From NCBI GenBank assembly GCA_021846985.1, contig JAJZVX010000009.1, positions 56,390-120,389 on the forward strand: 64,000 bases of DNA, written 5' to 3'. The position numbers and the translations under genes were made by a program. Of the stretch, positions 47,924 to 54,734 are shown piece after piece. Origin of the DNA: Acidobacteriota bacterium. GTDB lineage: Bacteria > Acidobacteriota > Terriglobia > Terriglobales > Acidobacteriaceae. The notes beneath the pieces are model-generated. The model ran no database searches. It saw nothing but the letters and a program-made list of their open reading frames with translations, and was not told the origin of the DNA. Numbering within the stretch: position 1 is the first letter of the stretch; the number at the start of each line of letters is the position of its first letter.

Positions 47924-48114
47924 TCAATCTTTAGCAGATCGCTGACTCGATTCTGCGTCTTCGGATTTCCCAGAAAAATGATACGCTCGTGAGCCAATCT
48001 CACCCTCAAACCACACGAATATATCCATCAAGTACTTCTCCTCCCGAACAAGTACTTCTCCTCCCGAATTCGGCCACCTGAGAACGGAACGTACGTAGGG
48101 TCAAACAGTCCCAT
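47924..48114 (-). pseudogene. Small gene broken by a 20-bp tandem duplication
   Basis: From the ATG at 48114 the frame reads MGLFDPTYVPFSGGRIREEKYL, then runs into a 20-bp exact duplication that shifts it to an early stop. Removing one copy joins it in frame to MDIFVWFEGEIGSRAYHFSG and a charged tail ending at 47924, giving a protein of about 55 aa. Either half could still be translated: the second has its own ATG at 48028 behind GGAGGAG. The frame overlaps the end of the upstream small gene by 14 bases. Function unknown. Confidence 0.5.
48029..48068. repeat. Exact tandem duplication of 20 bases
   Basis: The unit CAAGTACTTCTCCTCCCGAA occurs twice head to tail (48029-48048 and 48049-48068) with no mismatch. 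Twenty is not a multiple of three, so it breaks the small gene above. Perfect identity points to a recent event or an assembly slip. Confidence 0.9.
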
Positions 48115-48307
48115 CCGGGGATTCTCGTAGGGCAAAAGAACAGACGTCGAATCCCTTACTCTTCCAGTAGCCAAGAGCAAACGCCTCGTCGGAGGAGAGC
48201 TTCGAGAAGCGGTGTGCGTGGACCCCGCGCAGACCCTTGCTGAAGTCATATTCGGGTCTCATATCGCCTTCATTCGCTTCTATCTTCTTTCTAGCGGCTT
48301 GACTCAT
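48101..48307 (-). CDS. Small protein with antitoxin-like EYDFSKG motif
   Basis: A 68-aa ORF, MSQAARKKIEANEGDMRPEY followed by DFSKGLRGVHAHRFSK and a short tail. The segment R-x-EYDFSKGxRG is common at the N-terminus of small antitoxin-like proteins in many bacteria, but the rest does not match a CopG or similar domain, so it may be degenerate. It overlaps the broken small gene by 14 bases, suggesting a former two-gene unit. GC content here is below the window's norm. Confidence 0.45.
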   Translation of the reverse strand: MSQAARKKIEANEGDMRPEYDFSKGLRGVHAHRFSKLSSDEAFALGYWKSKGFDVCSFALRESPDGTV

Positions 48308-48479
48308 ACTGGAACCTCGCTGCTGGGGCCGCCCTCCTTGCGCGGATGATACAAATGCATTCCTTGCACCCAGTGTGCGCCACGAACAGCACTCTTGCCA
48401 AGAATGACAAAACAAGTGTAACCGGCTTGGATTCAAGCCGTGGAATGAAGGTTGTCCGGAATAGCGATAGCACGAGGGC

Positions 48480-48526
48480 CACTGCTGTCCAAATTGGCTG
48501 GAGACAGCCCATTTTGGACAGCAGTG
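48480..48526. repeat. Long near-perfect hairpin
   Basis: Arms of 21 and 22 bases (left begins CACTGCTGTCCAAA, right ends TTTGGACAGCAGTG) pair around a GAGA loop with one bulge and one mismatch. A smaller perfect hairpin, GGCTTG-GATT-CAAGCC, lies at 48424-48439. It is 19 bases past the stop of the next gene on the minus strand, so it could act as a terminator, but there is no T run and the form is more like a dispersed repeat (REP/MITE-like). Confidence 0.7.
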
Positions 48527-48544
48527 AGTGCAGGGGACGGAAAC

Positions 48545-48982
48545 CTACTTTTGCTCTTCGGTATGCTCGATTGCGTGTTTGTGCTGTTTAACGAAACGCG
48601 CCTCCTGCCTGCTCGTTTCCGTAACTTCTGCTCCGTCTTTTGATCCCATCTCGAAAATTCTATTCAGAAACTCTGTATTTCCATACTTGCGAAAAGTGAG
48701 CTCTGAATGTCTAGGCGTATGGTCATCCGTCGTATCCCGAACAAGAAACTCTACCCTAATTTTATCGTTCGCACTGCTGGCGGTCATGATGGAAAGCTCC
48801 GAATCTTGCATCATCCGGAAGATATAGTCGCCGGGCGGTAAGGTGGCGTTGCCGACCACGAAGCTGTGGTCAATGTGCGCCCGAATTTGGTTTGTAATCT
48901 GAGCATGCAGCCATGGTGCGCCTGCTATTACAAAAAACAAAGTGACAAAGGTTGTCGCTAACATTCTCAGGCAGCTTTTCAT
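48545..48982 (-). CDS. Secreted small protein of unknown function
   Basis: A 145-aa protein with a signal peptide (about 1-27, MLATTFVTLFFVIAGAPWLH) and a beta-rich domain: AHIDHSFVVGNATLPPGDY, FRMMQDSELSIMTASSAND, RHSELTFRKYGNTEFLNRIF. Proteins of this general form recur in Acidobacteriota; no function is known to me. AAGGAG lies just upstream of the ATG at 48982. The gene is less GC-rich than its neighbours. Confidence 0.75.
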   Translation of the reverse strand: MKSCLRMLATTFVTLFFVIAGAPWLHAQITNQIRAHIDHSFVVGNATLPPGDYIFRMMQDSELSIMTASSANDKIRVEFLVRDTTDDHTPRHSELTFRKYGNTEFLNRIFEMGSKDGAEVTETSRQEARFVKQHKHAIEHTEEQK

Positions 48983-49460
48983 GAGCAACTCCTTGCATTG
49001 ATTTTGGTCCCTGCTTTCCGTTCTGGAACGCAAGGCCATGGAACGAATATACAGCAGATCAGCCGTGTCCGGCGCAGTACGAGCTTCCGGAGGGTTCCGA
49101 TGTGAAAGACCCCAAGGGGAGTAAGCGAAGAGGTCTCGCAGGTCTCAAAGGCGGGCAAGACGCAGAAGGGACTCAATCGGGCAGCGCTTCGGTCTTCACA
49201 ATCTCCGCCACTCACTTTCCAATTGGCAGGTGGCCCGATCAAAAACCGCAATAAGTTGTACTCGCGGGTGCCCCACTCTCGCCACGCCTTTGTTTTTGTG
49301 GCTAGGGTGGGATAGGTAAGTCTCACCTCATAGGGCCGGATCAATAAAATGGCTCTTTGCGAGAAAGTGTAAGACCCCCTGTTTTTGCAGGGGTTTTGAG
49401 AGACAGGGCTCCCTGTAGCGCGTTCAGTCCGATGCGGCAGAATTGCTCCGAGGGCTCTTC
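48983..49460. other. Non-coding stretch with hairpins and a shared 21-bp repeat
   Basis: No supported gene. Features: an interrupted inverted repeat CCCAC-n4-GCCAC / GTGGC-n4-GTGGG at 49272-49311; a 21-bp sequence at 49327-49347 found again at 58404-58424; and a 6-bp hairpin CCCCTG-TTTTTG-CAGGGG followed by TTTT at 49376-49397 that looks like a terminator on the plus strand. This reads as a patch of repeats and insertion debris. Confidence 0.55.
49327..49347 (+). repeat. 21-bp repeat, copy 1
   Basis: Identical to 58404-58424; core ATAGGGCCGGATCAATAA. Flanks differ. Both copies lie in non-coding, repeat-rich stretches, so it may be the edge of a lost mobile element. Confidence 0.75.
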
Positions 49461-49690: not shown

Positions 49691-50884
49691 TTACAACCTC
49701 TCGAACAGCGCCTTGCGCGGATCGCCCGGATTCAGCCTGGCCAGCTCCCGCATGATCTCGCGGCTGCGCTCGTCCTGCAAGTGTGGCACCGTCACTTCCA
49801 CGGTCACGATCTGATCGCCGCGCTGGCCGGGGTTCTGGGCGTTTTCGACGCCGCGCTCGCGCATGCGCAGCTTCTGTCCGCTCTGGGTGCCGGGGGGGAT
49901 CTTCAACTGGGCGCGGCCGTCGATTGTGGGCACATCGACCTTGGCGCCCAGGGAGGCTTCCGGGACGGTGACGGGGACGGTGACAAGGATGTCGTCGCCC
50001 GCGCGCGTGAAGACCGGGTGCGCGCCGGTACGGACGATCAAGAACAGATCCCCGGTCGGGCCGCCGTTGAGACCGGCGTTGCCTTTGCCCTGGAGGCGGA
50101 TGCGCTGGCCATCGCGGGTGCCGGGCTTGATGCGGAAGTCGACGGTTTCCGACCGGGGCACCACGCCTTCGCCATGACAGGTGGCGCAGGCGTGGGCGGC
50201 GCGGCCGGAGCCGTTGCAGCGCGGGCAGGTAATGTTGAACTTCATCCGCCCGCCCATCTGCGTCACCTGGCCCGTGCCGTTGCACTCCGGGCAGGCGACG
50301 GCGCCGCTGGTCGAGGCCTGGCCGTGGCACGTGGGACAAGTCTCGTGCCGGTTGATCTGGATACGCGCCTGTCCGCCGTGGATGGCCGTCCAAAAATCGA
50401 CGGTGGCCTGGTACTCGATGTCAGTGCCGGGCTGCGGGCCGCGCGGCCGCTGCGCCTGCTGGGCGCCGGAGAAGATACCGGAAAAGATGTCTTTGAAGCT
50501 GCCCCACGCCGGAGAGCCAGCGCCCGCGGACGGCGCGTGCGGCATGCCCGCGCCGCCGGTGAAGCCGGAGAAGTCGAAGCCGTCAAAGTCCACCGGCGCG
50601 CGGTGGCCGCCCTGCTGGCGGGCGTAGGCCTCGGCGGTGGCCGGGTCGATCTGGTCGGAGTAGAAGCCCACCTGGTCGTAGATCTTGCGCTTCTTCTCGT
50701 CGCTCAGGATGTCGTTGGCCTCGGAGATCTCTTTGAACTTTTCCTCGGCGCGCTTGTCGCCGGGGTTGACGTCCGGGTGGTATTTGCGCGCGGCTTTGCG
50801 GAAGGCCTTGCGGATCTCCTCCGGCGTCGCCGTCTTCTTCACGCCTAGCGTGGCGTAATAATCTTTGCTCTGGGTCGTCGCCAT
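49691..50884 (-). CDS. dnaJ: Chaperone DnaJ
   Basis: A 397-aa type I Hsp40: J domain ([20 protein letters not shown], with the HPD in [10 protein letters not shown]), a Gly/Phe-rich linker ([14 protein letters not shown]), the four CxxCxGxG zinc repeats ([31 protein letters not shown]) and the C-terminal substrate domain. It delivers clients to DnaK and triggers ATP hydrolysis. It is 1.9 kb from dnaK; toxin-antitoxin genes lie between them. No grpE is seen in the window. Confidence 0.96.
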
Positions 50885-50985: not shown

Positions 50986-51321
50986 TCACGGGTATTTGAG
51001 CACCAGGCAACCTTCGTTCCCGCCCTCGAAGACATGAAGTCTTTGAACGGCATTTCGTAAAACAAATTCCGCGCGCATGGTTGTGCAATTTCCTACTCGC
51101 AGCCAGATTACTTTAGGCGGACACCCAAACAAGGCGCTCCGCTGAGAGAAATCGGAATCCTTGGATACGATCACAAAACCATTTTCTTCCGCATACCGCC
51201 ATATCTCATGGTCTGAGGAGCCGCGCAAACCGCAGTCTCTCGGATGAATTGAGCTGGGGTAGACGTCCGCTAACGATCTCACCAGCCTATGCGACAAGTT
51301 CTCGTCGAACAGAAGTTTCAC
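50986..51321 (-). CDS. DUF5615 PIN-like toxin
   Basis: A 111-aa protein of the DUF5615/Mut7-C-like PIN family: KLLFDENLSHRLV, GLRGSSDHEIWRYAEENGF, VIVSKDSDF and PPKVIWLRVGN. The acidic residues D6, E7 and the D of SKDSDF are those expected of a PIN-type RNase. Overlaps the DUF433 antitoxin gene by 4 bases (stop/start), the classic type II toxin-antitoxin layout with the antitoxin first. Confidence 0.88.
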   Translation of the reverse strand: MKLLFDENLSHRLVRSLADVYPSSIHPRDCGLRGSSDHEIWRYAEENGFVIVSKDSDFSQRSALFGCPPKVIWLRVGNCTTMRAEFVLRNAVQRLHVFEGGNEGCLVLKYP

Positions 51322-51542
51322 AGTTGCACGATCTCAACTCTGCGCTCAGCGTCGGCAGCATAGGCCAGACATGCGCGAATATCGGTTTCGCTCAAATCGG
51401 GAAAATCGGCAAGTATCTGCTCCTGCGTCATACCTGCGGCCAGATAGTCAAGGATGTCGTAGACGGTAATGCGCGTTCCGCGAACGCATGCCTTGCCGCT
51501 GCGTCTGCCCGGATCGATGGTGATGATTTTTGCGTAATCCAT
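51318..51542 (-). CDS. DUF433 antitoxin
   Basis: A 74-aa DUF433 protein: ITIDPGRRSGKACVRGTRIT then VYDILDYLAAGMTQEQILAD and FPDLSETDIRACLAYAA. DUF433 proteins fold as small winged helix domains and pair with DUF5615 toxins. GGGAGGGAGG lies before the ATG at 51542. With the 4-base overlap to the toxin gene this is a complete TA pair, inserted between dnaK and dnaJ. Confidence 0.9.
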   Translation of the reverse strand: MDYAKIITIDPGRRSGKACVRGTRITVYDILDYLAAGMTQEQILADFPDLSETDIRACLAYAADAERRVEIVQL

Positions 51543-51579: not shown

Positions 51580-51864
51580 TTATGCCGCAACCTCGAACTG
51601 CTCGATCTTGGGTCGCCTCTTACGCGAGGCGTGCCAAATGTCATAGCTCATCTGCATCTCGCACCACATGCTGTCGTGAGTTCCGAGGGCCGCCGAAGGC
51701 CGCAGCGACATGTCCGCCGAAATGCCGGCGGCGCCGTTGAGGAAGCGCGAGAGCGTCGTGCGCGAGACGTGCAGCCTTTTCGCCGCGGTGGTCATATCCA
51801 TGTAGCCCAGCGCGTCGCGGAGAATCTTGCCGGGGTGGGGCGGGTTGTACATACGAGATGTCAC
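51580..51864 (-). CDS. higA: HigA-type antitoxin (Xre family)
   Basis: A 94-aa HigA/VapI-type regulator: NPPHPGKILRDALGYMDMTT then AAKRLHVSRTTLSRFLNGAA, GISADMSLRPSAALGT and WCEMQMSYDIW. These are the usual HigA features. HigA normally follows a HigB RNase gene of about 90-110 codons; none is present. Instead its start overlaps by 4 bases the stop of a 257-codon gene of unknown family. The DUF433 gene follows after 37 bases. Confidence 0.88.
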   Translation of the reverse strand: MTSRMYNPPHPGKILRDALGYMDMTTAAKRLHVSRTTLSRFLNGAAGISADMSLRPSAALGTHDSMWCEMQMSYDIWHASRKRRPKIEQFEVAA

Positions 51865-52634
51865 TTCGTTGCACCGATTTCTTGAAGGTGTTCGTAGAAT
51901 TTCTTGCCCTCAACAAGCAATCCGAACGGCTGATGCGCAATCGAGCCGTTTCGCGCCATCATCGTTTCGACCGCCGCAATGAGTCCTAGCGACTGTAATC
52001 TCGCGAGTGAGGCACGCGTTGTCGTATGTTCTCGGGAGTCGAAGTGGTTAAAATGCATAGACCAATTAGCGGCTATTTGCTGACTCCACTCACCTGAGAG
52101 CCAGCCATGCTGGAGGAACTGGGATTGCTTATCGTAAATCATTCTCAAGAGATCGATATCCGCATCTTTCAGTTCCACAGCTGCCCGCATCATGTCATCG
52201 AGGCCTTCTGGCTCAAGATCATTCTCTTTGACGCCGTTTACGATGACGCGTGCCAGTCGCTTCAATCGATCCTTCAATGATGTTTGCATTGCGCGGAGCG
52301 CGAGCGCGGAGATCGCCTCTGCAAACTTTGGATCGTTTGACAATGACTCAATTCGCTCGCGGAGTTCCGCATGATTTTCACGAAGATCCTTCAGATCATT
52401 GCGTACTGCTGTGATTGCATAAATCAGATTACTCGCGTAGCTCGCTCCGGCCATGCCACGAATTCGTTGCAGCAGGCTTATACCCGCGCTGGATGAAGCC
52501 ATCGGACCAGCTATTCCGCAAAGCGAAAGCAAATCGCCGATTATTCCGGCGAACTCGCCTCCAGGAGTTTTTTCAATCTCCTCGAAGTTGAGTTGAGCCA
52601 GTGCCGCGTCGGTTCGTAAATCAAACTGCCCCAT
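51861..52634 (-). CDS. Unknown 257-aa protein coupled to HigA antitoxin
   Basis: No family recognised. The protein has a Gly/Ser-rich hydrophobic segment (about 26-55, GEFAGIIGDLLSLCGIAG), a coiled-coil segment (about 68-100, ITAVRNDLKDLRENHAELRE) and helical stretches (RLKRLARVIVNGVKENDLEP, AAVELKDADIDLLRMIYDKQ). The C-terminal part looks like a winged-helix (TTRASLARLQSLGLIAAVE, LLVEGKKFYEHLQEIG). Base composition is lower in GC than the neighbours, suggesting transfer. The ATGA overlap with higA implies co-translation, so it may be the toxin or effector of that antitoxin. Confidence 0.7.
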   Translation of the reverse strand: MGQFDLRTDAALAQLNFEEIEKTPGGEFAGIIGDLLSLCGIAGPMASSSAGISLLQRIRGMAGASYASNLIYAITAVRNDLKDLRENHAELRERIESLSNDPKFAEAISALALRAMQTSLKDRLKRLARVIVNGVKENDLEPEGLDDMMRAAVELKDADIDLLRMIYDKQSQFLQHGWLSGEWSQQIAANWSMHFNHFDSREHTTTRASLARLQSLGLIAAVETMMARNGSIAHQPFGLLVEGKKFYEHLQEIGATK

Positions 52635-52740: not shown

Positions 52741-52771
52741 CGGGGTGGGCGACTGGAAATCGCCCACCCCG
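52741..52771 (-). terminator. Hairpin after dnaK
   Basis: Perfect 12-bp stem CGGGGTGGGCGA (52741-52752) with 52760-52771 and a 7-base loop, 35 bases past the dnaK stop. No T run on the minus strand, so it may work as a weak terminator or 3' stabiliser. Confidence 0.65.
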
Positions 52772-52805: not shown

Positions 52806-54734
52806 TTACTTCTTCTCGTCCACGTCCACGTACTCGGCGTCGATGACTTCGCCTTCCTTCTTGGCTTCGCCCTCCGGGGGCGCTGCGGCGCCACCCTCCG
52901 GCGGCGTGCTCGCGGCGGCCGCCTGAGCGGCGTTGGCCTTGTAGAGGACCTCGGCCAGCTTGTGGCTGGCGTGGGTAAGCTTCTCGTGCTGGTCCTTGAG
53001 CTCGGTGGTGGACGGCGAGCCCTCGAGAGTTTTCCTGGCCTCGGCCAGGGCGGATTCGACTTCGCCCTTTTCCGGACCCTGGATCTTGTCGCCGTTCTCC
53101 TTGAGCATTTTGTCGATGTTGTAGACCAGGCCGTCGAGGGCGTTGCGGGCTTCGATCTCCTCGCGCTTCTCCTTGTCCTCGGCGGAGTGGGCTTCGGCTT
53201 CCCTGGCCATCTTCTCCACCTCGTCCTTGCTCAGGCCGGAGCTGGAGGTGATGGTGATGCGCGTGTCCTTGCCGGTGGCGTTGTCCTTGGCCGTCACGTT
53301 GAGGATGCCGTTGGCGTCGATATCGAAGGTGACCTCGATCTGGGGGATGCCGCGGGGGGCGGGGGGAATGCCGCCCAGCTTGAACTTGCCCAGGGTACGA
53401 TTCTGGGCGGCCATGGGGCGTTCGCCCTGCAGGACATGGACCTCGACCTCCGTCTGGCTGTCGGCGGCGGTGGAGAAGGTCTCGGTCTTCTTGGTAGGGA
53501 TGGTGGTGTTGCGCGGGATCATGGGCGTGGCCACGCCGCCCAAAGTTTCAATGGACAGGGTCAGGGGCGTCACGTCGAGCAGCAGCAGATCCTTGACCTC
53601 GCCGGCCAGGACACCGGCCTGGACGGCCGCGCCCACGGCGACGACCTCGTCCGGATTGACGCCGCGATGGGGCTCTTTGCCAAAGAGCTTCTTGACCAGT
53701 TCCTGGATTTTGGGCATGCGCGTCTGCCCGCCCACCAGCACGACTTCGTCGATATCGCTGAACTGCACGCCAGCGTCGGCGATGGCTTTTCTGCAGGGGT
53801 CGAGGGAGCGCTCGAGCAGATCCTCGACAAGCTGTTCGAGTTTGGCCCGGGTGAGCTTGCGGACCAGGTGCTTGGGACCGCTGGCGTCGGCGGTGATAAA
53901 GGGCAGATTGATCTCGGTTTCGATGGTGGTGGAAAGCTCGATCTTGGCCTTTTCGGCGGCGTCCTTGAGGCGCTGCAGGGCCATCTCGTTGCCCTTGGAG
54001 GTCAGATCGAGGCCGTTCTCCTGCTTGAATTCGGCGATCAGCCAGTCGACGATGCGCTGGTCGAGATTGTCGCCGCCCAGGTGGGTGTCCCCGTTGGTGG
54101 ACTTGACTTCAATCACACCTTCGCCTACTTCGAGGATGGAGATGTCGAAGGTGCCGCCGCCGAAGTCGTAGACGGCGATGGTCTCGTCCTTCTTCTTGTC
54201 CAGGCCGTAGGCGAGGGCGGCCGCGGTGGGCTCGTTGACAATGCGCTTCACGTCCAGGCCCGCGATTTTGCCGGCGTCCTTGGTGGCCTGACGCTGGGCG
54301 TCGTTAAAGTAGGCCGGCACGGTGATCACGGCCTCGGTAACGGTCTCGCCGAGATAGGCTTCGGCGCTCTTCTTGAGTTTCTGGAGGATCATGGCGGAGA
54401 CTTCGGGGGGGGTGTACTCCTTGCCATGGGCAACTACGCCGACGTGGTCGCCCTGCTGCACGACTTTGAAAGGAACCATCTTCATCTCGTCGTTCACTTC
54501 GTTGTAGCGGCGGCCCATGAAGCGCTTGATCGAGAAGATGGTGTTCTCAGGGTTGGTGATGGCCTGCCGCTTGGCGACCTGGCCAACCAGGCGTTCGCCG
54601 CTTTTGGAGAAGGCGACGATGGAGGGCGTGGTGCGGGCGCCTTCCTCGTTGGGAATCACTTTGGGCTCGCCGCCCTCGAGGACGGCGACGCAGGAGTTGG
54701 TTGTGCCGAGGTCAATGCCGATGATCTTTGCCAT
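52806..54734 (-). CDS. dnaK: Chaperone DnaK (Hsp70)
   Basis: A 642-aa Hsp70. ATPase domain with [36 protein letters not shown] and [17 protein letters not shown]. The substrate domain is followed by a disordered C-terminal tail rich in A, P, G and E, ending in the conserved acidic EYVDVDEKK. It folds and protects proteins with DnaJ and GrpE. Expression is probably controlled by HspR through the HAIR-like site 49 bases upstream of the ATG. Confidence 0.98.

Follow-up and report, generated by a model that had tools for sequence, protein, structure and literature searches.

What does a HigA-family antitoxin gene do where HigB is missing and its place is taken by an unrelated protein? This question is raised by a 64,000-nt stretch of DNA from an Acidobacteriota bacterium of the Acidobacteriaceae (contig JAJZVX010000009.1, positions 56,390 to 120,389; hereafter the window), in which the gene of a 257-amino-acid protein, given the working name P257, lies directly before a HigA-family gene (Table 1). 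The minus-strand order is dnaK, P257, HigA, a DUF433 gene, a DUF5615 PIN-like gene and dnaJ. The original prediction for this DNA had recognized the order of P257 and HigA and the missing HigB, both of which are confirmed here (tblastn with five HigB queries gave no match between dnaK and dnaJ of the window), and it overlooked the DUF433/DUF5615 pair after HigA as well as the dnaK and dnaJ genes that flank the whole insert. The HigA protein matches NCBIfam TIGR02607 with 76.5 bits (cut-off 47.7, E 1e-21), and the junction of the two genes, GCAACGAAGTGACATCTCGTATG, contains a 4-nt overlap that reads GTGA, with a GTG start, rather than the ATGA that had been predicted, the HigA ATG being situated 8 nt past the P257 stop codon. 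The identical -4/+8 start geometry is found at locus L040, where P257 is 37% identical to that of the window over residues 32-256. It is tentatively proposed here that P257, a mosaic protein encoded in a toxin-antitoxin (TA) hot spot, is likely an Abi-alpha-related effector of abortive infection and that it would be restrained by the HigA encoded after it.

The P257-HigA gene pair is confirmed, and chance is an unlikely explanation for it. There are 17 P257 copies in the genus, of which 15 are close relatives, and HigA lies directly after P257 in nine of the 14 close loci with downstream sequence (window, L010, L031, L032, L033, L040, L041, L042, and L062; the cut locus L034 is outside the 14). 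HigB is absent at 9/11 HigA copies near P257 compared with 2/25 copies without P257 (L052 and one copy in L088), for which the Fisher exact test gives p 2.8e-5, a value that serves as a description only because related sequences are not independent; the 36 copies do not include the fragmentary HigA of L071, the L050/L011 duplicate or loci cut by contig ends. When the 36 copies are placed on a tree, the distribution of HigB-less copies requires 4 changes, as opposed to 9.6 in shuffles, and one clade of eight copies (support 100/100) is always HigB-less, with seven of the eight following P257. A profile built from six copies of this clade retrieves exactly these eight in 80 genomes (E <= 5e-57; next match E 2.6e-30). 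The window HigA is placed outside the clade of eight, in another clade where HigB is kept in 4/7 copies, including its nearest relative in L086, so that at least three separate losses of HigB beside P257 are probable (window, L040, and the clade of eight). The P257-HigA arrangement was not found among the open-licence PMC papers searched. At L010, L031, and L062, the N-terminus of HigA corresponds to the beginning of a different XRE antitoxin (as in L027/L049), perhaps a scar left by deletion between adjacent TA modules.

The position of P257 in the genome is equally constrained. dnaK lies upstream in all 12 close loci with upstream sequence, sometimes with a small open reading frame (ORF) in between (L042, L006, and L034), and dnaJ lies downstream in 12/14, the exceptions being L040, where dnaK and dnaJ are separated, and L027. 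DnaJ was detected in 65 of the 80 genus genomes, and 52 new regions upstream of dnaJ together with the earlier loci yielded 42 intervals with neighbouring dnaK and dnaJ. Thirteen of these (94-469 nt) are empty of TA and P257 families, 28 contain TA-family genes or fragments (in one, L058, DUF433 fragments only), and P257 is present in ten, nine of which also carry a TA-family gene; every interval of at least 500 nt holds a TA-family gene or P257. The query library for HigA, HigB, RelE, and XRE was built from ORFs of the same intervals, and examples were then confirmed by Pfam/NCBIfam (HigB PF05015, RelE PF06296, helix-turn-helix antitoxins, and HigA TIGR02607), while DUF433/DUF5615 calls outside the window rest on similarity to the window genes. 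The dnaK-dnaJ interval is thus a toxin-antitoxin hot spot, and a role of this interval as a store of TA and defence genes was not found among the open-licence PMC papers searched. Other cargo includes DUF2971 and DUF4760 genes in the intervals of L064 (147-1076) and L080 (678-1193; both in interval coordinates). At L067, L072, L075, L076, and L040, dnaK and dnaJ have opposite orientations and are approximately 4.6-5.1 kb apart, so the chaperone locus has been rearranged in some members of the genus; the gene between them may encode a drug transporter.

The P257 family is built as a mosaic. In an alignment of 108 members (5778 pairs), conservation is high in residues 101-160 and 239-251 (entropy 0.9-1.1), whereas entropy rises to 2.4-2.8 in the hypervariable residues 161-210 and 223-238. 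Pairwise identity over residues 1-100 is correlated with that over residues 101-160 (r 0.83) and not with that over residues 161-240 (r 0.07), such that 299 pairs have N-terminal identity above 0.75 with C-terminal identity below 0.3, and 11 pairs have C-terminal identity of at least 0.75 with N-terminal identity below 0.45. By clustering, the members fall into 9 N classes and 24 C classes, five of the latter being paired with more than one N class. The 15 genome loci alone, where the P257s of L032 and L062 include extra residues before the likely start, show the same pattern (r 0.79 between N-terminal and middle parts, -0.03 between N- and C-terminal parts), hence chimaeric metagenome assemblies are unlikely to be its sole cause. 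For example, L042 and L040 share 76% identity in the N-terminal, 92% in the middle and 21% in the C-terminal part, while L033 and L040 share 42% in the N- and 81% in the C-terminal part. The direct reading of these alignments is that the C-terminal modules would have been exchanged by recombination.

P257 is a sporadic accessory family. Carriers, with the window genome included, amount to 17/80 genus genomes, 15/398 family genomes, 3/396 phylum genomes and 5/60 relatives, and the named records are Acidobacteriota or Acidobacteriaceae bins. A search of 5.8 billion proteins returned 306 relatives at E <= 0.001, and a profile search 360 among 7999 scored candidates; none of the 120 matches listed from either search carries a precomputed Pfam domain. 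The original prediction had described a hydrophobic Gly/Ser segment, a coiled coil and a winged-helix-like C-terminus. Corresponding parts are present in P257, whose mostly helical predicted model has a long helix and a C-terminal winged helix, after an N-terminal segment rich in Gly: over residues 25-65 the mean Gly content of the family is 0.20 vs 0.054 after the segment, and the AlphaFold2 model has a predicted local distance difference test score (pLDDT) of 44-57 up to residue 60. A RelE- or HigB-like toxin was rejected, given that the model is mostly helical and that no such Pfam (including PF05015), NCBIfam or PADLOC match was obtained, and an origin as a phage or plasmid gene was rejected after searches of IMG/VR (with degenerate patterns), PLSDB and INPHARED gave no match. 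Foldseek of P257 against PDB and BFVD, and of the Abi-alpha model against BFVD, returned nothing at E <= 0.001; five weak viral matches common to both BFVD lists (A0A291AUV8, K9MCD3, A0A6J7XFI0, H9YPD2, and A0A6J5LII9) are not used as evidence. Likewise set aside was NCBIfam NF045477 (E 0.073), for which a search of 6 genomes was empty and its controls were silent as well.

Among known families, P257 can be compared best with Abi-alpha (PF14337, formerly DUF4393), which, according to PMC6356687, is an abortive-infection protein by experiment, causes early lysis and is encoded on prophage 6 of Enterococcus faecalis. Both proteins are of similar size (about 250-272 residues) and, as compared by eye in two AlphaFold2 models, appear to have N-terminal helices, a conserved core and a C-terminal winged helix in the same order. 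The weak profile match covers P257 residues 123-251, and hhalign gives a score of 33.0 (P 6e-4), compared with at most 21.6 in 100 column shuffles. Unlike Abi-alpha, P257 has exchangeable C-terminal modules, an adjoining HigA and a fixed site between dnaK and dnaJ, whereas Abi-alpha is described as a prophage gene (PMC6356687).

Seven distant homologues are located away from dnaK-dnaJ (L028, L029, L030, and L035-L038), and two of them (L028 and L035) adjoin defence genes. At L028, genes for SIR2 and HerA (PADLOC E 3e-150 and 1e-241) follow the homologue at a distance of 270 nt; at L035, the homologue belongs to a same-strand run that also includes a HamB-like helicase gene (E 1e-43) and one unassigned gene, near GajA and GajB (PADLOC E 1e-257 and 1e-242), a Gabija/Hachiman-like setting. 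The P257 relatives of L029, L036, and L038, which come from three genomes in two genera and occupy different sites, are very similar to each other, perhaps as a result of recent transfer, and the convergent neighbour in L029 (6895-7284, plus strand) has a weak match to an Xre/MbcA/ParS antitoxin domain (19.2 bits vs a cut-off of 24.5).

Under the favoured explanation, P257 would be toxic, would act in defence and would be under HigA control. The C-terminal winged-helix module, as the most variable part, is predicted to be the sensor and would recognize a sign of infection, such as a phage product or nucleic acid, upon which the Gly-rich N-terminal segment would be released or rearranged. This segment may then disrupt the membrane and halt the infected cell, which would fit the early lysis with Enterococcus Abi-alpha. 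Until infection, HigA would act as a repressor of the gene pair and/or as a binding partner of P257. New alleles could enter by homologous recombination via the dnaK and dnaJ flanks together with the conserved core and tail. A more specific version, which we regard as rather unlikely, sees the dnaK-dnaJ operon as the site of an allelic immune locus, namely an Abi-alpha-like effector with a C-terminal sensor exchanged like a specificity domain, and with HigA recruited from HigB to an unrelated partner at least three times. If the favoured explanation is true, an abortive-infection effector could take over a classical RNase-linked antitoxin to which it has no original relation, and TA-like defences could be built in a new way; a natural allele set would exist at one fixed chromosomal site, with predicted sensing modules that vary independently of the rest, and what Abi-alpha-like proteins sense would become directly testable.

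The original prediction had already suggested a toxin or anti-phage effector held by HigA. The absence of HigB next to P257, the weak kinship to Abi-alpha, the two defence neighbourhoods and the nine close loci with HigA speak for this proposal, whereas several observations weigh against it or against the explanation favoured here. A full HigB-HigA pair follows P257 in 2/14 close loci (L006 and L091), no HigA is next to it in 3/14 (nothing in L061, DUF433 in L011, and a different XRE fragment in L027), and HigA and other TA genes occupy the interval also without P257. At the distant loci, tblastn with seven HigA queries found a clear HigA at 0/7 (best 30% identity, E 0.001, in L029), and PADLOC on ten neighbours at L029, L030, L036, L037, and L038 identified just a methyltransferase-like gene in L029. 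P257 matches PF14337 with 13.8 bits, below the cut-off of 29, the hhalign probability is just 27.7% with the winged-helix half, a common fold, as the aligned part, and 0/108 members bridge to Abi-alpha at E 0.01. PADLOC-DB 2023 contains no credible match to P257; its best hit (E 0.0064) aligns a Cas12d stretch with residues 64-124 in the long-helix region, and the Cas12d, LmuB, and PDC-M22B matches (E 0.006-0.04) are read as long-helix matches. The Gly-rich segment is just moderately hydrophobic (best 19-residue hydropathy 1.58 in the window P257; 49/108 members reach 1.6). A single HigA type accompanies P257s with differing N- and C-modules, so no tight one-to-one fit is seen between the two proteins, and the window HigA has a Pro where six clade relatives have a Leu. 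As for composition, the low G+C content claimed originally holds for the two kilobases of P257 and HigA (0.556-0.559, vs 0.585-0.696 in the remaining kilobases of 49-58 kb) and for third positions of P257 (0.53, vs 0.87-0.89 in dnaK/dnaJ), but not for those of HigA (0.82), and this mismatch between the two genes also weighs against the favoured explanation.

In an alternative account, P257 would be a single-gene Abi-alpha-like defence passenger of the dnaK-dnaJ hot spot, and HigA would be only what remains of an older HigBA module displaced by P257; this is possible, though less probable than the favoured explanation. HigBA modules occupy the same interval without P257, HigB is still kept by four of the seven copies in the clade of the window HigA, L006 has P257-HigB-HigA and L061 has P257 alone, HigB-less HigA occurs also without P257 (L052 and L088), and the P257 relatives at the distant loci have no clear HigA. 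Orphaned genes should decay, yet all nine HigB-less HigA frames after P257 are intact, with a ratio of non-synonymous to synonymous substitution rates (dN/dS) of 0.06-0.32, a rough range in that dS often exceeds 1: the clade of eight gives 0.08-0.32 and the window HigA 0.06-0.16, the latter measured against mostly HigB-bearing copies, so that this constraint could predate the loss of HigB. In addition, the HigB-less clade keeps P257 across diverged species (7/8), which also argues for the effector held by HigA. It is improbable that the two genes form a plain type II TA pair, in which P257 would be toxic in normal growth and complexed by HigA; gene order, overlap and HigB absence are as expected for such a pair, whereas the three close and seven distant loci without an adjoining or clear HigA, and the combination of one HigA type with different P257 modules, are not. 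Least probable is a role of P257 in transcription, in which a factor with a MarR/PadR-like domain would control either the TA genes or the chaperone operon.

The arrangement has some similarities but also differences to known TA systems. As in HigBA type II modules, a TIGR02607 HigA directly follows its partner gene, whereas the place of HigB (PF05015) is taken by the unrelated, mostly helical P257. A promiscuous type II antitoxin network (PMC10440598) resembles the arrangement reported here in that an antitoxin family has different toxin partners; the antitoxin here is HigA, whose control of P257 is predicted. TA-chaperone (TAC) modules include a SecB-like chaperone; the flanking chaperones here are DnaK and DnaJ.

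Table 1. Features of the dnaK-dnaJ interval in the window (window coordinates)
Feature	Position	Strand	Remarks
dnaK	52806..54734	-	upstream flank of hot spot; ORF
P257 gene	51861..52634	-	257 aa, Abi-alpha-like mosaic protein; ORF
P257 residues 25-65	52440..52562	-	Gly-rich, moderately hydrophobic, low confidence in model
P257 residues 101-160	52155..52334	-	conserved core (RLKRLA..NGV, LDDMMRAAVEL); mean column entropy 0.90-0.91
P257 residues 161-238	51921..52154	-	hypervariable, exchangeable winged-helix module (predicted)
HigA-family antitoxin gene without HigB	51580..51864	-	from GTG; ATG at 51852; TIGR02607
DUF433 protein, likely antitoxin of adjoining DUF5615 gene	51318..51542	-	PF04255, 92.5 bits
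DUF5615 PIN-like protein, likely toxin	50986..51321	-	PF18480, 113.5 bits; GTG start
dnaJ	49691..50884	-	downstream flank of hot spot; ORF

The DUF433/DUF5615 pair downstream of HigA (50986-51542, 4-nt overlap) is a separate, second TA-like module of the interval, which occurs also elsewhere in the hot spot, with similar pairs in L049, L056, L064, and L077. A scan for terminators and promoters gave counts equal to those in shuffles; a perfect 11-bp inverted repeat past the dnaK stop (52742-52770, no T run), which the scan did not list, was seen by eye. The lowest G+C content of the window (0.51) is found at 48001-49000, where small ORFs lie between dnaJ and a MerR-like gene.
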